A DNA stretch of 59,823 nucleotides from an uncultured Gemmiger sp. (GTDB taxonomy: Bacteria > Bacillota > Clostridia > Oscillospirales > Ruminococcaceae), in assembly GCA_944388135.1 (NCBI GenBank), contig CALXHP010000058.1, positions 1 to 59,823 on the forward strand, written 5' to 3'. Below are positions 26,223 to 36,649 of this stretch, piece after piece (positions within the stretch are counted from its first letter, which is position 1; every line of letters starts with the position of its first letter). The notes beneath the pieces are model-generated. The model did not search any database, was not told the origin of the DNA, and saw nothing but the letters and a program-made list of their open reading frames with translations. Position numbers and translations under genes: made by a program.

Positions 26223-27122
26223 TCAAAGATCGTCAAACCGCCAGCCATCCAGAAGATGCTCATCTTTCGCAAGCTGTCGCATGTCAAATGGCAAAGGGCT
26301 GACAATCCTGCGCAGTTCCCTGGTAAAAGGGTGCTGAAAGCGCAGTACACCGCAGTGCAATGCATGACGTCCTATCCTGGCATCGGATCCTCCATAAAGC
26401 GTGTCGCCTGCCAGAGGATGCCCGATATAGGACATATGTACCCGAATCTGGTGGGTACGTCCCGTACGCGGTGTACATGCCAACAGGCTGTGATGCGGTC
26501 CGACTGCCAGTACTGTGTATTCCGTCAGACTGTATTTGCCCTGTTGTGTGACACAGCGCCCTATGATAGAATCGCCTCGTCTGCCTATGGGTTCTTCAAC
26601 TCGACCGAAGCCCAGCGGCAGGGACCCTTGTACAATTGCCAGATAACATTTTTGAACGTAGGCTGTAAGCAGCGGAGCCGAAAATGCATTCTGTGCGCAT
26701 AGTACAAGGCCACTGGTATTTTTATCAATTCGATTGATCGGTCTGAAAACACCGGTTTTTCCTTGGCATTGCAAATGAAAGATCCATCCGTTTGCCAGGG
26801 TATGGTCCGGATAATTTAGTGTGGGGTGAACAGCTAAGCCTGCCGGCTTGTCCAACACGGCAACAAAGTCATCCTCGTATGCAATGGACAAAGGAATGGG
26901 TTGTGGAATAACACTGGTGGGCTGTTCCGGCGGCAAAGCAAAAGAAATGCATTGCCCCGTGTGTACCAATTGGTTGGTATGAATGGGAATTCCGTCGGCA
27001 AAAAAGCCATTTCCAAGATGTTTGACCGACTTGATCAGTCCTGCCGTTATGCCGCAGGTACGCAAAAAAACGCCAAGGCGTTGCCCCTCGGCTTCAGGCG
27101 GCACGAGATAGCGCAGTTCCAT
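26223..27122 (-). CDS. RluA-family RNA pseudouridine synthase
   Basis: The 299-residue enzyme isomerises uridine in rRNA or tRNA. The catalytic aspartate lies in NRIDKNTSGLVL (about 127-138), followed by RTGRTHQIRVHM, both diagnostic for the RluA/RsuA superfamily. The N-terminal region resembles a weak S4 domain. The specific target (RluA, RluC, RluD or other) cannot be read from sequence. The ATG at 27122 is 13 bases after AAAAGGAGG, slightly long spacing. Confidence 0.9.
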   Translation of the reverse strand: MELRYLVPPEAEGQRLGVFLRTCGITAGLIKSVKHLGNGFFADGIPIHTNQLVHTGQCISFALPPEQPTSVIPQPIPLSIAYEDDFVAVLDKPAGLAVHPTLNYPDHTLANGWIFHLQCQGKTGVFRPINRIDKNTSGLVLCAQNAFSAPLLTAYVQKCYLAIVQGSLPLGFGRVEEPIGRRGDSIIGRCVTQQGKYSLTEYTVLAVGPHHSLLACTPRTGRTHQIRVHMSYIGHPLAGDTLYGGSDARIGRHALHCGVLRFQHPFTRELRRIVSPLPFDMRQLAKDEHLLDGWRFDDL

Positions 27123-27160
27123 GGCAACGTGCCACCCTCCTTTTGCACCCATATGGCAGT

Positions 27161-27189
27161 ATTATAGCACAAAGGCAGTATAGATGCAA
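27161..27189 (-). promoter_or_regulatory. Promoter of the pseudouridine synthase gene
   Basis: On the minus strand TTGCAT (27184-27189) and TATAAT (27161-27166) are 17 bases apart. Confidence 0.85.
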
Positions 27190-27206
27190 ATCCAATGTTT
27201 GTCAGG

Positions 27207-27254
27207 ATAAAAAACAAAACGGCACATCCGCGCAGTGACGCTGCGGACGTGCCG
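27207..27254 (-). terminator. Terminator of rnpB
   Basis: On the minus strand CGGCACGTCCGC pairs with GCGGATGTGCCG (one G-T) around an AGCGTCACTGC loop region, followed by TTTTGTTTTTT. It begins about ten bases past the RNase P RNA. Confidence 0.9.
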
Positions 27255-27264
27255 GAACGCTCAT

Positions 27265-27613
27265 AAAAACGACTGGACCGTAAGCCGGGTTCTGTATCAA
27301 ACGACGATCTATCTTGGCCTTGCGTCGCCGCAAGGCTCACGCCATCACCGGGACGCGCGAGGCTCCGCATCATGTCCCATACGGATGTTGCTTCAAGCAG
27401 GGTTTACATAGCCGCAAAGTCGCCAGTGCGCTGGTGAGCTCTTACCTCGCCTTTCCATCCTTACCGTGCCGAAACACGGCGGTTTCTTTCTGTTGCACTA
27501 TCCCTGGGGTCACCCCCGGCTGCCGTTAGCAGTTGCCATGCCTCTGTGAAGCCCGGACTTTCCTCAGGCGGTTCTTGCGAACCGTCCCGCCGCCGTATGT
27601 TCCACTCGTTTTC
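27265..27613 (-). ncRNA. rnpB: RNase P RNA, class A
   Basis: This catalytic RNA removes 5' leaders from pre-tRNAs. Conserved blocks on the minus strand are GAGGAAAGTCCGGGC, GGTAAGAGCTCACC, and the 3' CAGAACCCGGCTTA. The ends are set by helix P1: AAAACGA with TCGTTTT continuing TGGA with TCCA across one G-G mismatch. The 5' end falls about six bases after the -10 of its own promoter. At 349 nucleotides it fits class A. Confidence 0.96.
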
Positions 27614-27618
27614 GGCTT

Positions 27619-27647
27619 AGTATAGCATAAATTTTCTCTGTTGGCAA
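27619..27647 (-). promoter_or_regulatory. Promoter of rnpB
   Basis: On the minus strand TTGCCA (27642-27647) and TATACT (27619-27624) are 17 bases apart. The -35 lies just beyond the bofA stop codon. Confidence 0.85.
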
Positions 27648-27650
27648 GTA

Positions 27651-27905
27651 TTACAGCAGTAACTGGAGAAGCAGCAGCAGAATTACCCCCGGCATTCCCA
27701 GCAACACCGAGATACCCCCGGTAAAGCGATTCAAAGGGAGCGTGACCCCCGTGACAGGTGCCAAAAGCCCCAACAAAGCCAACGTTCCCAATCCGCAGAC
27801 GGCGCTGCCCAGGATGGTCAGAATCGGGTGCCGCTGATGTGCGGCACACCGCCCGATGATCAACAGACAGACGGCAAGACCTCCCCAAAGCCATCTGTTC
27901 ATCAT
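27651..27905 (-). CDS. bofA: BofA-family sporulation membrane protein
   Basis: The 84-residue protein has about three hydrophobic segments and the conserved BofA C-terminus TGVTLPLNRFTGGISVLLGMPGV. In Bacillus, BofA holds the SpoIVFB protease inactive in the forespore outer membrane until pro-sigma-K processing is triggered. The start at 27905 overlaps the yaaL stop (ATGA), with GGGAGGTG upstream. Whether a SpoIVFB partner exists is not known from this window; an M50 protease is encoded at 50354-51019. Confidence 0.88.
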   Translation of the reverse strand: MMNRWLWGGLAVCLLIIGRCAAHQRHPILTILGSAVCGLGTLALLGLLAPVTGVTLPLNRFTGGISVLLGMPGVILLLLLQLLL

Positions 27906-28114
27906 GGGTCGGCACCTCCCGAACGCAACATCCGCAGCAGTGCACGGCAACGGCACATCAGTGCTGCATGTTGGTAGGTCAGCTGTTCGATATAAAATGG
28001 GTCCTGTGCTTCTTCAAAAGCCATTTCATTGGCGCGCAATGCCTGCATGGCATGCTGCAGTTCCGCCTGTAGGGCTCGATGTTCTTTCTCTTGGCGGGTC
28101 AATCGTTTAAACAC
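27902..28114 (-). CDS. yaaL: DUF2508 (YaaL-like) small protein
   Basis: The 70-residue, mostly helical, charged protein has a heptad-like pattern suggesting a coiled coil (EKEHRALQAELQHAMQAL). DUF2508 genes sit immediately before bofA in Bacillus (yaaL-bofA), and this gene does the same with a four-base overlap. Function is unknown. A GTG at 28114 is chosen because GGGGGAG precedes it by six bases, and translation then begins with FKRL as in the family; an ATG five codons earlier is possible. Confidence 0.8.
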   Translation of the reverse strand: MFKRLTRQEKEHRALQAELQHAMQALRANEMAFEEAQDPFYIEQLTYQHAALMCRCRALLRMLRSGGADP

Positions 28115-28130
28115 AGGCTTCTCCCCCATC

Positions 28131-29606
28131 TCACAGCAAGATACAGATCAAACCGTCGCAGCCTTCGTTGATGATTCTTTCTAAGGTGGTCTGCAATCGG
28201 TTGCGGGCTTCCTGCGGCATATGCAAAAGCTTCGCCTGTACTCCTTCGCTGACAAGCTCATTGAGACTTTTCCCAAAAATATTTGTGTTCCACAGCTTTC
28301 CGGGGTCTGTTTCAAAATCGGCCAAAAGACTTTTGATCAGTTCTTCTCCCTGCTGCTCGCTTCCCACCGTGGGGGACAATTCCGTATGGATATTGGCCCG
28401 CATAATATGCAGGCTGGGGGCACTGGCGGAAAGTCGAACCCCGTATTGCCCGCCCTGGCGTACGATTTCCGGTTCTTCCAGCGTCAGTTCATCGATTCCC
28501 GGCATGACGATGCCATATCCCGTTGCCTCGACCTGATCCAGCGCCGCCTTGATTTTGTCATAGGCTCGCTTGGCTCTGGCCAGACTGACTACACAGGGCA
28601 ACAGACTCGCTTCATCCACAATTTCAAGTCCTGTCTGCTCTCCCAGAATTTTATAAAAGATATCCGGGCTAATATTGGCGCTCATCCGCACGGTGCCGGT
28701 GGAAAGATCCATCCCCGTCAACGCCGCACTGACGATGTATTCACAATTTAACTGCGGACGTTTTCCTGCCACATCGGCCATCTTTTGTACGCTTTCTGCA
28801 TACGCAAGCATGGCTGTATAGACAGAACTTTGCAGCCAATGGCCCGCTTCCAGCATTGTCACCCAGGAGGGCATCGAAACCGCAATTTCCCGGATAGGAA
28901 ATTCGTACAGCAATGTCTGCAGCAGCCGGTCCAACGTTTCTGCCGTCATTGTTACACAATTGATGGGAAATACGGCATGGTGATAAATGTCTGACAGCTG
29001 GGCTGCCAGCTGTTGGGCGTCGTCGCTCTCAGGGTCTGCGCAATTCAACAGGATGATGTACGGTTTGCCGATAGCATCCAATTCTTCCACTATACGTCGT
29101 TCGGCTTCCTCGTATCCTTCCCGCGGCAAGTCCGCCACCGAACCATCGGTAGTAACTACCACACCGACTGTTGCATGCTCCCGGATCACGCGGCGGGTAC
29201 CGGTTTCGGCAGCCAGGTCGAAGGGAACTTCATGATCGAACCATGGGCTTTTTACCAGGCGGGGCGAATCGTTTTCTTCATGGCCCAGCGCACCTTCCAC
29301 CATATACCCGACACAATCGATCAAACGGGCGCGAAAGCTGCCTCCCCCGGAAAGTTCAATGGTAACGGCCTTCTCCGGGATGAATTTCGGCTCCGTGGTC
29401 ATAATGGTCCGCCCCGCCGCCGATTGAGGCATCTCATCTTTAGCCCGCGCCCGAAGTGCCTCATTCTGAATATGCGGCAGTAACATCAACTCAGTAAAAC
29501 GTTTGATGAAGGTACTCTTTCCGCTGCGTACCGGCCCTACAACACCCAGGTAGATATCGCCGCCTGTGCGCTGTGCAATGTTCTGGTAAATCTGTTCCTG
29601 CGTCAC
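28131..29606 (-). CDS. spoIVA: Stage IV sporulation protein A, coat scaffold ATPase
   Basis: The 491-residue protein polymerises with ATP hydrolysis into the basement layer of the spore coat on the forespore surface. Walker A is GPVRSGKST with Lys30, the same residue number as in Bacillus SpoIVA. RTGGDIYLGVVG, MPQSAAGRTIMTTEPKF and the C-terminal ERIINEGCDGLICILL are family hallmarks. The GTG at 29606 is preferred over ATG six bases earlier since it has proper spacing from AAAGGGGG and reproduces the Bacillus N-terminus length. It follows sipL by 14 bases. Confidence 0.96.
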   Translation of the reverse strand: MTQEQIYQNIAQRTGGDIYLGVVGPVRSGKSTFIKRFTELMLLPHIQNEALRARAKDEMPQSAAGRTIMTTEPKFIPEKAVTIELSGGGSFRARLIDCVGYMVEGALGHEENDSPRLVKSPWFDHEVPFDLAAETGTRRVIREHATVGVVVTTDGSVADLPREGYEEAERRIVEELDAIGKPYIILLNCADPESDDAQQLAAQLSDIYHHAVFPINCVTMTAETLDRLLQTLLYEFPIREIAVSMPSWVTMLEAGHWLQSSVYTAMLAYAESVQKMADVAGKRPQLNCEYIVSAALTGMDLSTGTVRMSANISPDIFYKILGEQTGLEIVDEASLLPCVVSLARAKRAYDKIKAALDQVEATGYGIVMPGIDELTLEEPEIVRQGGQYGVRLSASAPSLHIMRANIHTELSPTVGSEQQGEELIKSLLADFETDPGKLWNTNIFGKSLNELVSEGVQAKLLHMPQEARNRLQTTLERIINEGCDGLICILL

Positions 29607-29620
29607 TCTCATTTCCCCCT

Positions 29621-31168
29621 TTACAACGCTGCCGGAATCAGCAGGCAAGTCGTTTCTGTTGTAAGGTCCTGCGGCAGCTTCCCTTCACATTCCATATGGT
29701 TGGCTGCCACAAGATCTTTTGCCCGCGCGTGATAACGTTTGGCTATATCGAATACCCGTTCACCATCCTGCGCGTAATAGAGGTACAACGCCGGGCCATC
29801 CCCTTTTTCTGCATATTCTTCGCCCAGCTCCACCTCGCAGAGTGCCTCTCCGGAAACAGCTTGCAGCAGCACCCCTGTCGTAGCGATATCCACTTCTACC
29901 CGAAGCTGTGCCCCATTCTTATTGGTGGCGATTCTGGTAATGCAAGCTTCCATGCAGGGGCAGGCATCTGCGGAAGTCCCGCGCCATGCGCCATCCACCT
30001 TCCAGGTGAAAGTTTTGTCATAGCATGTCAACTCCCCCCGCGGGTCAGCACAGAATACATGCGCAGTTCCTTTGCCCACAAGGCAAACGCTTTTTTCCGG
30101 TTCATTGGTCTCCAACTCGGTGGGTGTTGCACTGCCCAGCGTAACAAAACATCCTTTGACATCCACTTCCGGATCGGGCAGATCATCCGCCAAATTCACA
30201 CTGACATGGCCATTCAAATCTGCGGTCGCATTGAATAGTTTGCAGGCAGTTTGTACCGTTTGAGTCTGGCAAACCGTTGAATACGCGTCGGCCACCACGG
30301 TAAGGCTGGAGGTCCGCCATACTTCCAGGTGCAGTTTCCAGGTCACCGAAAGTTCTGCCTCCCCGCTTTCGGAAGCCGCCATGCTGGCAGCTATCACCTT
30401 TCCCCAGGCGATGCAGGTATCGCCTTCTGTCACTCCGGGAAGGTCCACCGTTTGCTGAACAGGGAGTTCTTTCTGGTGAACAGCCATTTCATCTGAGGAT
30501 CTGGACTGGCAGCATACTTGGAGCTGCAAGGTGCCCTGCACACTGGCCTGGCCGGTTTGCAGCGAGACACTGCCCACAGCAAAATTGCCGTCAATATCCA
30601 GCACAGTGTCGCCCGCATCCTGCAGCAACATGGAAGTCTCTGCCGTGAATGTCTTTTCTTCTGCCGCAATACGCTGCTGCCCCCGGAGTTCTTTGGTCCG
30701 CTGCTCTACGCCACAGTCCGCAAGGGAGGTCAACACCTCGCACTCCCTGCCGGAGAGAACGGCACCGCATAAAATATAGGCTCCACGCAGGTCTATGCGA
30801 TGTTCGCTGACCGCATGGCAGTTGCAGTACTCCGTTTCCCCCCAGATTTGTGCAGGCCCCTCCAAATAGTTGCCGGCGGGAAGCTCGACCGATTTTTCGA
30901 AGGCAAATTTTTGTTCGGTGCGGTACAGACGGCACCCCGGTTCATCGCTTTGGTAATACACGGTACAGCGCAGATAGCCCTCGCTTTGCCACCGCAGGCC
31001 TGCCACGCGGTTTTGCAGGACTACCGGTTCGATTAGGCATTTCACGATTTTAAACACGGCTGGAAGATAATCCGGAATCAGAATTTCGGTTTCCACCGGA
31101 AGCTCCAGCCGGGTTTCCCATCTGCCCGCATACGATGCTATGGTGTCTTTGAACACCTTGAGTTCCAT
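29621..31168 (-). CDS. sipL: SipL-like coat morphogenetic protein (DUF3794 and LysM)
   Basis: The 515-residue protein contains repeated DUF3794 beta domains and a C-terminal LysM domain (LYYAQDGERVFDIAKRYHA, then KDLVAANHM). In Clostridioides, SipL binds SpoIVA through its LysM domain and replaces SpoVID of Bacillus. Direct adjacency to spoIVA supports the call. The start at 31168 follows AAAGGGGC. A sigma-E-like promoter lies upstream. DUF3794 also occurs in other spore proteins, but the architecture plus context make SipL most likely. Confidence 0.9.
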   Translation of the reverse strand: MELKVFKDTIASYAGRWETRLELPVETEILIPDYLPAVFKIVKCLIEPVVLQNRVAGLRWQSEGYLRCTVYYQSDEPGCRLYRTEQKFAFEKSVELPAGNYLEGPAQIWGETEYCNCHAVSEHRIDLRGAYILCGAVLSGRECEVLTSLADCGVEQRTKELRGQQRIAAEEKTFTAETSMLLQDAGDTVLDIDGNFAVGSVSLQTGQASVQGTLQLQVCCQSRSSDEMAVHQKELPVQQTVDLPGVTEGDTCIAWGKVIAASMAASESGEAELSVTWKLHLEVWRTSSLTVVADAYSTVCQTQTVQTACKLFNATADLNGHVSVNLADDLPDPEVDVKGCFVTLGSATPTELETNEPEKSVCLVGKGTAHVFCADPRGELTCYDKTFTWKVDGAWRGTSADACPCMEACITRIATNKNGAQLRVEVDIATTGVLLQAVSGEALCEVELGEEYAEKGDGPALYLYYAQDGERVFDIAKRYHARAKDLVAANHMECEGKLPQDLTTETTCLLIPAAL

Positions 31169-31215
31169 GTTTGATTGCCCCTTTCCATCTGTCGCTTGGT
31201 TGACTGTCTGGTGCA

Positions 31216-31244
31216 TGTATATGCGGCAGGGCAAAAAAATAATC
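31216..31244 (-). promoter_or_regulatory. Candidate sigma-E promoter of sipL-spoIVA
   Basis: On the minus strand GATTATT (31238-31244) and CATATACA (31216-31223) are 14 bases apart. Mother-cell sigma-E promoters in Bacillus have KMATATT, 14-15 bases, CATACAMT; the match is 6 of 7 and 6 of 8. The -35 overlaps the end of the spoVM terminator. Identification rests on resemblance plus the target genes. Confidence 0.45.
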
Positions 31245-31266
31245 CCTGCCTTGCGGCAGGGATTTC
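31232..31266 (-). terminator. Terminator after thiN-spoVM
   Basis: On the minus strand AAATCCCTGCC pairs with GGCAGGGATT around GCAA, followed by ATTTTTTT. It lies ten bases after the spoVM stop. Confidence 0.92.
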
Positions 31267-31275
31267 AAGAGACTA

Positions 31276-31344
31276 TCAAACTTTAAAGGCCGCACGGAGA
31301 ATCCAGCGCAACGCGCGCGGGCAACGGACCACAACCACATGCAT
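31276..31344 (-). CDS. spoVM: SpoVM, tiny coat-localising amphipathic peptide
   Basis: A 22-codon gene. Against the 26-residue Bacillus SpoVM it shares Pro9, Leu12, Ile15, Arg17 and Ala18 in register, with basic residues at 7 and 10 and a hydrophobic stretch at 3-6; Pro9 is important for function in Bacillus. SpoVM is an amphipathic helix that recognises forespore membrane curvature and recruits SpoIVA. GAGGTG lies seven bases before the ATG. Placement directly after thiN is the conserved Bacillus position (thiN-spoVM-rpmB), and a terminator follows. It is shorter at the C-terminus than Bacillus SpoVM. Confidence 0.85.
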   Translation of the reverse strand: MHVVVVRCPRALRWILRAAFKV

Positions 31345-31406
31345 GGACTGCACCTCACTTTCCTTGTGTGATGTAAGCCATACTATGCGATAATCTGTAC
31401 AGTGTG

Positions 31407-32042
31407 TTACCCGTCGGCACGGGTCAGCACAACCAGGCCATGCCCCGTGCGGCACATCAGATGGGCCGCCGGCGCAGTGAATTCATTGCTGGTGCCAAGG
31501 GGATAATCCAGCTCTGACAAGGTGGCATCCTGCAAAGGATAGTATACCCCCTGCAGCGTAACCCCTGTCATCGGGCTTCCCAACGCAAAAACAGAAAGAT
31601 ACATCCAATCTTTGCGTTCCAGATCCAACGGCTGCCCCGGCAGCAAATAGTGCATTTCACTTCGGGAGTCCGCCAGCACGACATCTACTCCGTGTAACGC
31701 CAGGAAAAGCCCTGTGGAAATATTCGCGAACATATGCTCGATGCGTGCGCCGCCCAGCGCGCCTAACAGGACAACTTCCGTGTATCCGTGCTCTACCAGC
31801 CAGCGGGCAGCAAATTGTGTGTCGGTATCGTCTTTTACATGGGGCAATACGATGGTTTCACGATCCGTTTCCGGCTGGGGGGCAGAATCAAAATCGCCTA
31901 CAATGAGATCCGGGCGTACGCCCAGCCTAGCCGCATTACGATATCCGGCATCGCAGGCAACCAGGAAATCCCCCGGCTGCAAATAAGAAGCCATATCCAT
32001 TCCAACCGGTACCGCTGAAAACACTACCGCACGTTTGCTCAT
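31407..32042 (-). CDS. thiN: Thiamine pyrophosphokinase
   Basis: The 211-residue enzyme makes thiamine pyrophosphate from thiamine and ATP. Motifs ACDAGYRNAARLGVRPDLIVGDFDS (in outline, residues about 30-54), KDDTDTQFA and LGALGGARIEHMFANI are diagnostic. It overlaps rsgA by four bases (ATGA). It is the last gene of the yicC-to-thiN block before spoVM. The pentose-phosphate epimerase gene often found between rsgA and thiN is absent. Confidence 0.94.
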   Translation of the reverse strand: MSKRAVVFSAVPVGMDMASYLQPGDFLVACDAGYRNAARLGVRPDLIVGDFDSAPQPETDRETIVLPHVKDDTDTQFAARWLVEHGYTEVVLLGALGGARIEHMFANISTGLFLALHGVDVVLADSRSEMHYLLPGQPLDLERKDWMYLSVFALGSPMTGVTLQGVYYPLQDATLSELDYPLGTSNEFTAPAAHLMCRTGHGLVVLTRADG

Positions 32043-32911
32043 CGCTCCCACTCTTTCCGGGCACTTGCTTCTTCATACATGGCAAGGTAACTTGCATAGC
32101 GAGTCTTGCTGATTTTTCCCTCATCCACTGCGTTCCGGATCGCACAGCCGGTTTCGCTGCGATGGGAACAGCCGGTAAAGCGGCACTGGCCAAAATAGGG
32201 CTCAAATTCCGGGAAGGTATGCTGCAATTCTTCTTTGGGAATACGGCACAGCTTTTGGGCTTCCAGGCTGGCAAAGCCCGGCGTATCCGCCAAGCGCCCG
32301 CCGCAAACCTCAAAAATTTCGACTTCACGGGTCGTATGACGTCCGCGCCCAAGTTTCTGGCTGATCTGGCCCGTTTCACGTCTGAGTTCCGGTGCCAGAG
32401 CGTTCAACAGCGTGGACTTTCCCACGCCGGAATTCCCGCAGAAGGCACACAAGTGGCCCTCTATATAATGACGTATCGTATCCAGGCCCTCTCCGGTTTC
32501 ATAATGCAGTGCCACCAATGGGATGCCGCTTCCTTCATAGGCCTGCGCAAGCCTATCTGCCGCTACCAGATCCGCTTTTGTTACAACCAGTACCGGCTGC
32601 ACATCCTTGTAGACGGCCGCTGCAATAAGCTCATCCAGAATCAAAGTGCTGGGAACCGGCTGTGTGGTGCTGGCAACGATAAACAGGACATCCAGGTTGG
32701 CCACCGGAGGACGGATAAAAACATTCTTGCGCGGGAGGATTTCATCAATGGTCATCTTGTCAGCAGAAAGCACCACATTGTCCCCAGCTACCGGCACAAT
32801 ACCCCGTTTACGAAAGATGCCGCGCGCTTTGCATTCCACAATGCCCTGCGCTGTGCGGACATAATAAAAACCGCCGATTCCCTTTGTAATATAATCCATA
32901 GATTCGCTCAT
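32039..32911 (-). CDS. rsgA: Ribosome small-subunit GTPase RsgA
   Basis: The 290-residue circularly permuted GTPase acts in late 30S assembly. An OB-fold N-domain is followed by motifs in the permuted order G4 (TKAD), G1 (GNSGVGKST), G3 (DTPG), then a zinc motif with CRFTGCSHRSETGC. The start is one of two consecutive ATG codons overlapping the prkC stop; the second is used here. It lies between prkC and thiN as in Bacillus. Confidence 0.95.
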   Translation of the reverse strand: MSESMDYITKGIGGFYYVRTAQGIVECKARGIFRKRGIVPVAGDNVVLSADKMTIDEILPRKNVFIRPPVANLDVLFIVASTTQPVPSTLILDELIAAAVYKDVQPVLVVTKADLVAADRLAQAYEGSGIPLVALHYETGEGLDTIRHYIEGHLCAFCGNSGVGKSTLLNALAPELRRETGQISQKLGRGRHTTREVEIFEVCGGRLADTPGFASLEAQKLCRIPKEELQHTFPEFEPYFGQCRFTGCSHRSETGCAIRNAVDEGKISKTRYASYLAMYEEASARKEWER

Positions 32912-34815
32912 CATGCAATCGGGTTGCCTTCTGCGTCGCACTGCACACCGTCTTCGTTCCACATTGTGCCGTCCGGCAGCTGGTGGATCTCGTGGCTGCC
33001 ATCGCTGCTGGACCACCAGCTCTCCGGGATACTGCCATCGCTGGTGCTGGGCGCAGGCGTCTCCACAGGTACCTCGGGCACACCGGTAGAGACTACCAGT
33101 GTAATGATCGAGCTGACACGTGCCTTGGTGCCGGCGGTCGGCGTCTGGCTTAAAACCGTTCCGGCAGGTTCAGAACTGGCTTGTTCGATCACCCGAACAG
33201 AGAAGTTGAGGACCTTCAGGTCGTTTTTGGCATCATCCAGCGTTTTGCCTGTCACGCTGGGCACGCCGTTGGTGTTGTTGATCACCGCACGGCTCACATA
33301 CAGAATGACGGTAGAATCCCCTTCTACCGTTTCACCGGCGGCGGGGCTTGTATAAATCACCGCTCCGTTTGCCACCGTATTGTCCTGCATGGGTTTTTGC
33401 AGAACATTCAACCCCATATCCTTCAGGGTCTGTTCTGCATCTTCCGCCACCATGTTTTTGGTCTCCGGAATGGTCACATACTGTGTACCCAGGCTTACCG
33501 TCAGGGTAATCTTTTGTCCTTCTTTTACAGTGCGCCCCGCCTTGGGATTCTGCCGTATAATGGTCCCTGCTGGATACGTGGAGTTGTACTCCTCTGCCTC
33601 CTGCAGTTTCAAAAGTGTATTATAGTCGGATGCACGGTACTCATCCAACGTCATCCCCACAAAATTGATGATCGTTACATCGTCTCGATTGGAGAACAGC
33701 AGGTTGCTCGAATTGGTAAAAATCAGATAAATCAGAATGGCCGCACCGATTACAAACGCCACCGCCATACCAAAGAAAATCGGCAAAACGGAAAACGGCT
33801 TCTTTTCTTTACGGCTCTTTTTGCCGGATTTACTCCGCGCAGAATTCGAAGTGCTCAAACGTCGTGCCTCTCCTGTCCGGATGTTGCTGCTTTTCGCGCC
33901 TGGTTTTGTATTATTCACAACACGATTGATGTTTTTTTCAGGATTATCCTGCGCGTTTCTGTATTCATACTCAAAACGCGCCGAAGGATTGCGTTTAAAT
34001 TCCTCGATCGCTTCCAACATTTCTTGGGCGCTTTGATACCGCTTGGCCGGGTCTTTCTCCATTGCTTTTTCGGTGATCTGACGCAAGCCTTCCGGTACGT
34101 TGGGTGCAACCTGCGCCAGCGGCTTTGCCTTATCGGAAATCTGCATAATGGCAATGGATACAGCTCCATCTCCATCAAAAGGCAGACGACCGGAAAGCAT
34201 TTCATACAACATAACACCCACAGAATAAATATCGGTTCGGGCATCTGTTTTATCGCCTTTCGCCTGCTCGGGGCTGATATAGTGTACGGAGCCGATCGCC
34301 TTATCACTTACGGTCTGGCTCTGTGCCCGGGAGAAACGTGCAATGCCAAAGTCCATCATCTTGATGGAACCGTCTGCCAGCAGCATGATGTTCTGCGGCT
34401 TGACATCCCGATGGATGATTCCTTTGGAATGCGCATGCTGCAGCGCTGCAAGCACCTGGGTTGCAAAATGCACCGTTTCTTTCCAGGTCAGTGCACCGCC
34501 GCGCTGCTTAAGATATTCCTTCAGCGTAATGCCGTCCACATACTCCATCACGATATACTGCAGACGATCCGTAACCGAGACATCATACACCTTTACAATA
34601 TTGGGATGATTCAGAATCGAAATTGCCTTGGATTCGTTTTTAAAACGACGGACCAGTTCTTCGTTATCCAGGAACTCTTCTTTCAGTACCTTTACGGCGA
34701 TTGCATTGCCGGTTTTTTCATCGATGCCGCGATACACATTGGCCATACCGCCAACGCCGACCAGGCTTTGAATCAAATAACGGCCATCCAGTCGTCTCCC
34801 AATCAGATTATCCAT
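32911..34815 (-). CDS. prkC: PASTA-domain Ser/Thr protein kinase
   Basis: The 634-residue membrane kinase has a cytoplasmic catalytic domain (glycine loop 20-28, Lys42, HRDVKPQN with Asp137, DFG 155-157), a basic linker, one membrane helix near residue 350-370, and three extracellular PASTA repeats that bind peptidoglycan fragments. A Ser/Pro-rich tail ends with an acidic segment. In Bacillus PrkC senses muropeptides and promotes spore germination and cell-wall control. The start overlaps the prpC stop by eight bases. Confidence 0.95.
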   Translation of the reverse strand: MDNLIGRRLDGRYLIQSLVGVGGMANVYRGIDEKTGNAIAVKVLKEEFLDNEELVRRFKNESKAISILNHPNIVKVYDVSVTDRLQYIVMEYVDGITLKEYLKQRGGALTWKETVHFATQVLAALQHAHSKGIIHRDVKPQNIMLLADGSIKMMDFGIARFSRAQSQTVSDKAIGSVHYISPEQAKGDKTDARTDIYSVGVMLYEMLSGRLPFDGDGAVSIAIMQISDKAKPLAQVAPNVPEGLRQITEKAMEKDPAKRYQSAQEMLEAIEEFKRNPSARFEYEYRNAQDNPEKNINRVVNNTKPGAKSSNIRTGEARRLSTSNSARSKSGKKSRKEKKPFSVLPIFFGMAVAFVIGAAILIYLIFTNSSNLLFSNRDDVTIINFVGMTLDEYRASDYNTLLKLQEAEEYNSTYPAGTIIRQNPKAGRTVKEGQKITLTVSLGTQYVTIPETKNMVAEDAEQTLKDMGLNVLQKPMQDNTVANGAVIYTSPAAGETVEGDSTVILYVSRAVINNTNGVPSVTGKTLDDAKNDLKVLNFSVRVIEQASSEPAGTVLSQTPTAGTKARVSSIITLVVSTGVPEVPVETPAPSTSDGSIPESWWSSSDGSHEIHQLPDGTMWNEDGVQCDAEGNPIA

Positions 34816-35557
34816 TGTTGACCTCCGTTGTTTCCACGCCCATAAGCAAAACCGTAATATTATCCTGACCGCCGGCCTGTAATGCGCGGTCTACCAAAAT
34901 GCTGGTCGCATCAAAGAAAGGAACTTCTTTTAAAATCCGTGCAATCTCACTGTCCGGAATCATGTTCGTCAAACCATCTGTACACAGAAGCAGAATGTCT
35001 CCGGCCTCAATTTCACAGCGGTTGTATTCCGGCACGATATTCGCGGCAACACCAAGAGCCCGGGTGATCAGGTTTTTCTGTGGGTGCAGCGATGCTTGCT
35101 CCCTTGTGATCTGGCCGCTGTCCACCAGCTGCTGTACCATAGAGTGATCCCTTGTGATTTGGCGCAGAGTGCCTTCGTGGTACAAATACGCCCGGGAATC
35201 CCCTGCATGAACGATATGGGCATATCCATTGCCGGCGTACGCGCACACACCGGTGGTTCCCATTCCCAGCATTTCAGGATCCGATGTAGCCTTATCGTAC
35301 ACTGCTCGATTGGTTACATCGAACCCGCGCATGATAAAGCTTTTCTCTCCGCCCGGCTGTAATGCACGCATCTGCCGTGCAAAGTACTGCTGCATGGTAT
35401 CTGTAGCGATGCGCGCTGCTATGCGTCCACCGTTAACGCCTCCCATACCATCACATACAATGCCCCAGGCCGTGCCGCCCGCCAGTTGCTGCGCACAGTA
35501 ATTATCCTGGTTTTCCTGGCGGCAACTACCTATATCGGTGATTGCGGCAATTTTCAT
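34808..35557 (-). CDS. prpC: PP2C-type protein phosphatase, partner of PrkC
   Basis: The 249-residue metal-dependent phosphatase reverses PrkC phosphorylation. PP2C motifs are present in order: ENQDNY, CDGMGGVNGG, HAGDSRAYL, LCTDGLTNM and QDNITVLLM, giving the aspartates of the two-metal centre. It overlaps prkC, the conserved kinase-phosphatase pair, and lies after rlmN. Confidence 0.95.
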   Translation of the reverse strand: MKIAAITDIGSCRQENQDNYCAQQLAGGTAWGIVCDGMGGVNGGRIAARIATDTMQQYFARQMRALQPGGEKSFIMRGFDVTNRAVYDKATSDPEMLGMGTTGVCAYAGNGYAHIVHAGDSRAYLYHEGTLRQITRDHSMVQQLVDSGQITREQASLHPQKNLITRALGVAANIVPEYNRCEIEAGDILLLCTDGLTNMIPDSEIARILKEVPFFDATSILVDRALQAGGQDNITVLLMGVETTEVNNG

Positions 35558-35602
35558 TCGGGATGTTCCTTTCCATGGTTTTTACTCTTAACACTCGGTG
35601 TC

Positions 35603-36649
35603 TCACGTTGCAGCCTGGGCATCTTCACGCCGCAACTGGCCGCAGGCCGCACTGATATCCGTGCCCAGGCGGCGACGCACTGTGGCATTTACCCCCAAAC
35701 GCTCCAGCTCTTGCTGAAAACGCCGTACATTGGCTTCGTCGGTGGCAGAATAAGGGCTGCCATCCACCGGATTGATGGGAATAAGATTGACATGAGCTCC
35801 CATTCCCTGAATCAGATGGGCTAATTTGTGTGCCATTTCCGAACTGTCGTTGACACCGCGTACCATCGAATATTCAAAACTGATACGCCGCCCTGTCTCC
35901 TTTTGATACCGCCGGCAGGCCGGAATGAGTTCTTCCAGAGGATAAGCATCATTCACAGGCATCATACCGGAACGGGTCACATTGTCCGGCGCATGCAGCG
36001 AAACGGAAAGTGTCAGCTGCAGATGACGTTTGGCCAACTCATCAATTTTGGGCACAAGCCCGCAAGTCGACAGACTGATATTGCGCATGCCAATATTGAC
36101 ACCTTCCGGGCAGGAAATGATTTCCAGAAAATCCATCACATTGTCGAAGTTGTGCAGCGGTTCCCCAATGCCCATCAATACAATGTGAGAAACGCGTTCC
36201 CCCGAATCTTTCTGCGCAGTATAGATTTCTGCCGCAATTTCCCCTGGTGTCAAGTCCCGCACGCGTCCCGCCTGGGTGGAAGCGCAAAACCGGCATCCCA
36301 TGGCGCATCCCACCTGGGTGGAAACACAAACGGTGTTCCCGTATTTATATCGCATCAGCACGGTTTCAATGCAGTTTCCATCTGCCAACTGCAAAAGATA
36401 CTTTACTGTACCATCCTTGGATTGCTGACGGCGCCGGATCTGCGGCACAGCAATGGTACACTGTTCCTCCAAAAGAGCCAGCAGTGCTTTTGGCTGATCC
36501 GTCATCTGGGCGAACTCCGTCACCATCTTTTGGTGCAGCCATTTGAAAATCTGCCTGGCCCGGAATTTAGGCTGGCCCATCCCCACTATATAGGCAGTCA
36601 AATGATCCAGCGTAAAGTCTGACAAACAGATTTTTTCTGTTTCCCTCAC
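35603..36649 (-). CDS. rlmN: Dual 23S rRNA/tRNA adenine C2-methyltransferase
   Basis: The 348-residue radical SAM enzyme methylates A2503 of 23S rRNA and A37 of some tRNAs. The cluster motif is CAMGCRFC, and the two catalytic cysteines fall in LSTCGLVP and near the C-terminus (AACGQLR). GIGEPLHNFDNV is also diagnostic. Length is normal. Confidence 0.96.
   Translation of the reverse strand: MRETEKICLSDFTLDHLTAYIVGMGQPKFRARQIFKWLHQKMVTEFAQMTDQPKALLALLEEQCTIAVPQIRRRQQSKDGTVKYLLQLADGNCIETVLMRYKYGNTVCVSTQVGCAMGCRFCASTQAGRVRDLTPGEIAAEIYTAQKDSGERVSHIVLMGIGEPLHNFDNVMDFLEIISCPEGVNIGMRNISLSTCGLVPKIDELAKRHLQLTLSVSLHAPDNVTRSGMMPVNDAYPLEELIPACRRYQKETGRRISFEYSMVRGVNDSSEMAHKLAHLIQGMGAHVNLIPINPVDGSPYSATDEANVRRFQQELERLGVNATVRRRLGTDISAACGQLRREDAQAAT

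Follow-up and report, generated by a model that had tools for sequence, protein, structure and literature searches.

The spacer between the genes thiN and sipL of an uncultured Gemmiger species raises the question of whether it holds a gene for SpoVM, the textbook tiny membrane-curvature-sensing protein, and, if so, what kind of SpoVM the gene encodes. The window analysed here, i.e. the whole stretch of 59,823 nucleotides of contig CALXHP010000058.1, belongs to a genome that is 83% complete. In it, the original prediction had placed a 22-codon spoVM gene at positions 31276 to 31344, with no strand given. The frame exists and lies on the minus strand, with an ATG start at 31344 and a TGA stop at 31278-31276, and it encodes the 22-residue peptide MHVVVVRCPRALRWILRAAFKV. 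A plus-strand reading of the same positions was rejected, frame 1 having neither an initial start codon nor a stop. The neighbouring genes also lie on the minus strand. Upstream are rsgA (32039..33016; PF03193, E 3.2e-48) and then thiN, encoding thiamine diphosphokinase (31407..32051; TIGR01378, E 2.1e-35, 122 bits for a cut-off of 76.4), whose end is 62 nt from the spoVM start. Downstream, sipL, for a SPOCS-domain coat morphogenetic protein (29621..31168; PF12673, E 4.8e-12), starts 107 nt past spoVM and is followed by the coat ATPase gene spoIVA (28131..29648; PF09547, E 5.4e-106, with PF20438 and PF20439). Based on orthologues in related genomes, a match to an independent profile and dN below dS, the frame is very probably the genuine spoVM of this Gemmiger species, in a lineage-specific form that lacks the C-terminal tail.

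One alternative is that the frame between thiN and sipL is open by chance and resembles SpoVM by accident: 22 codons is within the random range, and 140 frames of at least 20 residues overlap positions 27000-36000 of the window. We rejected this reading, whose probability we regard as practically negligible, on the strength of conservation, codon-level selection and an independent profile. Searching 35 Gemmiger genomes (including that of the window) with the peptide gave a positive result in every one (E 1.7e-10 to 2.1e-5), and the frame is intact in all 35, as the check proposed with the original prediction had asked. No two of the 35 coding sequences are identical, mean dN (0.174) is far below mean dS (1.26; NG86), and dN was lower than dS in each of the 513 evaluable pairs out of 595, dS being saturated in the remaining 82; the Gemmiger spoVM frame is under purifying selection. 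Mean divergence at codon positions 1, 2 and 3 was 19%, 11% and 50%, respectively, across a set of 34 sequences whose selection pattern required ATG, Pro9 and Trp14, so that residue counts in that set would be circular and one genome with a GTG start (L045) was left out. Residue counts given here come instead from 35 profile-picked peptides in which no residue was required. Among these, C8, P9, W14, F20 and K21 are invariant, while 33 peptides have Arg17 and two have Lys17. Conservation of Pro9 and Arg17, named beforehand as decisive, was thus found strictly for the former and nearly so for the latter.

The independent profile was derived entirely from outside the genus. A single-sequence search of the family had returned numerous hits at E 0.1-1, partly due to chance, and was replaced by an alignment-based profile search, in which 245 of 297 family genomes matched at E ≤ 1e-4 and 52 did not. 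The 159 loci outside Gemmiger were reduced to 149 genomes by leaving out eight without a usable SpoVM start (L007, L022, L023, L025, L026, L080, L084 and L110), the low-scoring L096, and L063, which is the same genome as L006. A profile of these 149 SpoVMs (137 distinct), containing no Gemmiger sequence, was then run against all stop-to-stop frames of at least 12 residues in the window. Across the 2,110 frames, the spoVM frame was matched at E 5.2e-8 (29.3 bits), and the next frame at E 0.8. The same profile recovered all 35 Gemmiger peptides with 24.2-45.5 bits. The highest score among 5,000 shuffled versions of the window peptide was 11.5 bits, so that its homology to other SpoVMs exceeds what chance would give.

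Comparison with B. subtilis SpoVM (26 residues, PDB 2mvh) revealed both clear likenesses and specific differences. The register with Bacillus SpoVM originally proposed was confirmed by the profile match and by Pro9, Leu12, Ile15, Arg17 and Ala18, which align with the 2mvh chain behind a similarly hydrophobic N-terminal segment. Both genes follow thiN, as is the rule in Bacillus, and both products have an amphipathic basic helix past Pro9. In the Gemmiger peptide this cationic helix is predicted from sequence: residues 10-22 have a hydrophobic moment of 0.86, compared to a mean of 0.39 for shuffled versions, 1% of which were as high. The SpoVM literature describes a peptide of <30 residues with a kink at Pro9 (PMC3533761, PMC5607322), and the window peptide has 22 residues and Pro9, with a predicted kink. 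In B. subtilis, SpoVM is an amphipathic helix lying on the membrane, and the P9A change mislocalises it (PMC4307972). Unlike B. subtilis SpoVM, the Gemmiger peptide is four residues shorter, lacks the charged C-terminal tail and is encoded next to sipL and spoIVA, and the window peptide has His2 for Lys2, Val6 for Ile6 and Trp14 for Gly14. As reported in PMC5607322, residues 2, 6 and 15 matter functionally in B. subtilis, where cortex formation is blocked by the K2A or I15A change and SpoIVA binding by I6A. The same paper reports that C. difficile can largely do without SpoVM. In the window peptide, Lys2 is lost to His2, Ile6 is conservatively replaced by Val6 and Ile15 is kept; across the genus, none of the 35 peptides has Lys2, its place being taken by Gln, His or Arg.

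The original prediction also held that gene callers would pass over such a gene, and the reference models agree: the window peptide had no match at E 10 in either NCBIfam, which includes the standard SpoVM model, or Pfam, and a phmmer search of the PDB found nothing. The NCBIfam model NF033436 (SpoVM_broad) spans 26 positions and has a curated cut-off of 31 bits, an annotation threshold rather than a biological criterion, which the window peptide does not reach. Of 10 further Gemmiger variants, three matched this model, all below the cut-off (13.2, 18.1 and 26.6 bits), and seven did not match. The best of these, from a congener 68% identical to the window peptide (L003), aligns over model positions 1-23 of 26, whereas the window peptide itself is unmatched. 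The same model matched 19 of the 22 members of our family alignment, and the profile of that alignment had a single, weak match in the PDB (E 0.19), to SpoVM 2mvh, with residues 1-18 aligned in register. SpoVM genes missed in this way are an annotation problem already known: SpoVM is very short (<30 aa) and rarely recognised in annotation, and 70 omitted spoVM genes were newly identified by Galperin et al. 2012 (PMC3533761). Our search of the open-licence literature found no paper mentioning both SpoVM and Gemmiger. Since the NCBI model is blind to the Gemmiger form, surveys relying on it would score this coat gene as absent.

The frame is accompanied by expression signals that are likewise conserved. 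The good ribosome site noted originally is a Shine-Dalgarno GAGGTG at 31351..31356 (minus strand), 6 nt 5' of the ATG, and an SD-like motif lies within the last 20 nt 5' of the start in all 35 Gemmiger genomes. Further upstream, GCATAGTATGGC (31377..31388, minus strand) is the probable -10 element of a sporulation promoter of sigma-E/K type; the core CATAnnATGG occurs no more than 90 nt 5' of the spoVM start in 35 of 35 genomes, at distances of 36-76 nt. The -10 boxes of sigma-E and sigma-K are typically of the CATA type. A regulon search of the whole window genome with the exact 12-mer found the spoVM site alone, against two occurrences of the reversed control pattern; accordingly, we claim no shared regulon box, and which sigma factor reads this promoter is a putative assignment. 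Sigma-E controls all three of spoVM, spoIVA and sipL in C. difficile (PMC5607322).

At the other end of the gene, a terminator had been predicted right after the stop, and a terminator-like feature does begin 11 nt past it: a 10-pair hairpin (31264-31241) followed by a T-rich tail, together forming a candidate intrinsic terminator at 31231..31264 on the minus strand. By itself the hairpin is weak proof, since a scan of 5 kb found six such sites where shuffles gave 5.0. Within the genus, a hairpin with a T tail was detected no more than 100 nt 3' of spoVM in 31 of 35 genomes (a count made without a shuffle control; the misses are L042, L043, L050 and L051), and its sequence varies between species. 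With a promoter box, a Shine-Dalgarno motif, 22 codons and a hairpin, spoVM is equipped as a transcription unit of a single gene. Beyond the hairpin, 5' of sipL, we observed a CGCATATACATGCACC stretch (31210-31225, minus strand) that recurs in many Gemmiger loci, uncounted here, and may be the -10 element of a promoter belonging to sipL itself.

As originally stated, spoVM lies directly after thiN, which is identified in the window by TIGR01378 and directly precedes spoVM in all 35 Gemmiger genomes. At least 34 of these have rsgA farther 5' and at least 31 have sipL 3', the examined loci being short and the counts therefore lower bounds. The order rsgA-thiN-spoVM-sipL-spoIVA was complete in 14 of 80 spoIVA loci from named genomes, 13 of them titled Gemmiger and one Subdoligranulum. 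Gemmiger is assigned by NCBI to the Oscillospiraceae, in agreement with the original prediction, which had spoken of relatives in that family. In three genomes (L127, L135 and L143), sipL-spoIVA has neither thiN nor spoVM nearby and spoVM is found elsewhere, so in Gemmiger spoVM and sipL are usually neighbours, but their linkage is not universal. Among the 149 other family genomes, thiN was found 5' of spoVM in at least 94 and sipL 3' in at least 34, both minimum values because neighbours outside Gemmiger were detected with the window's proteins as queries. Two genomes of Faecalibacterium, a genus described as non-spore-forming, also have an intact SpoVM (26 residues in F. prausnitzii CNCM I 4541 and 25 in Faecalibacterium sp. 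I4-3-84) and spoIVA, their spoVM lying beyond the flanks examined around spoIVA.

Within this conserved setting, the Gemmiger peptide stands out by its end and by a single residue. SpoVM has 22 residues in 27 and 23 in eight of the 35 Gemmiger genomes, and past position 20 none has an acidic residue and each has one or two basic ones. The 149 other family SpoVMs have 23-30 residues (25-30 in 146 and 23 in three), usually with a charged tail. The original prediction had called 22 residues shorter than the known 26-residue forms; the short length is a genus-wide feature of 22-23 residues, and the upper end of this range is also reached in three other family genomes. SpoVMs of other genera, including Faecalibacterium, share Pro9 (149 of 149, as in 35 of 35 Gemmiger) and differ in length, in the charged tail and at position 14: Trp14 is present in all 35 Gemmiger SpoVMs and in none of the 149 others among the matches listed, a set drawn from search matches and so biased towards well-scoring SpoVMs. 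Outside Gemmiger, Gly is the commonest residue at position 14 (115 of 150 loci, one duplicate genome included), followed by Pro (30), with other residues in the remaining five. The Gemmiger peptide is short through a derived condition in which the acidic/basic C-terminal tail was lost, and this genus-wide shortened, tail-less, Trp14 form of SpoVM is new here.

We placed these changes on a FastTree phylogeny of RsgA plus ThiN, which comprises 119 rows with both proteins (34 of the 35 Gemmiger genomes), carries local support values and has long-branch warnings that include the grouping of L027 with L075. Gemmiger forms one clade (99), and Trp14 requires one change. Both the loss of the charged tail and the gain of Trp14 fall on the Gemmiger stem. 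Short length requires three changes, which the drawn tree puts at Gemmiger, at L027 and at L009/L011; tail loss thus seems to have occurred more than once, and is coupled with Trp14 only in Gemmiger among the genomes read. The other short forms, from L009 and L011 (genus g76) and L027 (g32), are 23-residue SpoVMs without the usual charged tail, placed away from Gemmiger on the tree; those of g76 have a GTG start and Lys17.

Because the hydrophobic start, Pro9 and the amphipathic basic helix are all kept, we infer that the Gemmiger peptide does the same job as other SpoVMs: marking the convex forespore membrane and docking SpoIVA, with SipL as partner. In the proposed sequence of events, a sigma-E type promoter would drive, in the mother cell, a short spoVM-only transcript ending at the terminator. 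Residues 10-22 of the product would form an amphipathic helix, kinked at Pro9 from the N-terminal segment, that would insert into the convex outer forespore membrane. The membrane-bound peptide would then serve as a landing mark for SpoIVA, in line with the recruitment of SpoIVA by SpoVM in B. subtilis (PMC3533761). SipL, the product of the adjoining downstream gene, would join SpoIVA to build the coat basement layer. By this reasoning, 22 residues would be enough for SpoVM function. On a helical wheel reckoned by hand at 100 degrees per residue, Trp14 falls close to where the basic face ends, and our guess is that it strengthens interfacial anchoring in place of the tail.

Whether such a pathway operates in Gemmiger depends on the rest of the spore programme, which we examined at the level of genes. 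The window's genome has Spo0A (155 bits) and a sigma-E-like gene that scores 311 bits, below the model cut-off of 348.6. The sigma-K model had its highest score (245.6 bits, cut-off 298.65) with this same gene; a second gene, C71:9137, reached 208.9 bits with the sigma-K model against 170.6 with the sigma-E model and could, judging from these scores, be sigma-K, the B. subtilis control likewise falling below the sigma-K cut-off of 298.65. SpoVAC/SpoVAEB were found in all 35 Gemmiger genomes. PF00269, the family of alpha/beta small acid-soluble proteins (SASPs), was detected in none of the 35 (none of the 19 of good quality), compared to 206 of 297 family genomes. In Gemmiger, genes for the coat and for SpoVA are thus present, and the DNA-protecting proteins usual in spores were not found. 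In the 149 family genomes, residue 2 of SpoVM is divided along similar lines: all 27 genomes with Gln2 lack SASP, and 113 of the 122 with Lys2 have one. Since non-Lys2 is a single change on the RsgA+ThiN tree, this pattern represents one evolutionary event and is no independent evidence of a functional link, for which reason we place no weight on a Fisher test of it.

Two further readings were weighed. One is that spoVM is a decaying relic in a genus past spore-making, its short tail and odd residues reflecting degeneration. The missing SASPs, the lost C-terminal tail and the consistent lack of Lys2 all fit this, yet decay is at odds with an intact gene in every genome, with strong purifying selection and five invariant residues, and with the retention of the promoter box, the ribosome site and SpoVAC/SpoVAEB throughout the genus, and we consider a relic very unlikely. 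The other is that a SpoVM-derived curvature peptide has taken on a non-spore role, e.g. envelope work in a budding-like division. Gemmiger is described as budding, and it retains the coat basement genes spoVM, sipL and spoIVA although SASPs were not found. However, SpoVAC/SpoVAEB in all 35 genomes and Spo0A with the sigma-E-like gene in that of the window point to a spore programme, and across the family SpoVM accompanies the spore gene set, as the counts for SpoVM (245) and SASP (206) in the same 297 genomes indicate; a non-spore role is, in our assessment, extremely improbable. The preferred reading, a genuine SpoVM maintained for coat assembly, leaves Gemmiger sporulation itself putative, known here from genes, but selection on spoVM argues that the genus continues to use its coat genes, whatever that use may be. 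A broader hypothesis, speculative and in our estimate unlikely, is that the endospore of Gemmiger, and of its sister genera without SASPs, is a reduced one, in which the coat basement (SpoVM, SpoIVA and SipL) and the SpoVA channel are kept and alpha/beta SASPs are gone, with the Gemmiger SpoVM as a minimal 22-residue curvature sensor and Trp14 replacing the tail as membrane anchor.

A natural, genus-wide 22-residue SpoVM shows which part of the protein may suffice, and allows a direct test of the role of the tail. Besides this natural minimal SpoVM, the finding is of use for annotation and provides a pointer to SASP-free gut commensals with coat-building genes. Both Gemmiger and Faecalibacterium belong to the common commensals of the gut, and the way in which they spread is tied to the question of spore formation; that Gemmiger maintains spoVM is an argument for its using part of the sporulation programme.
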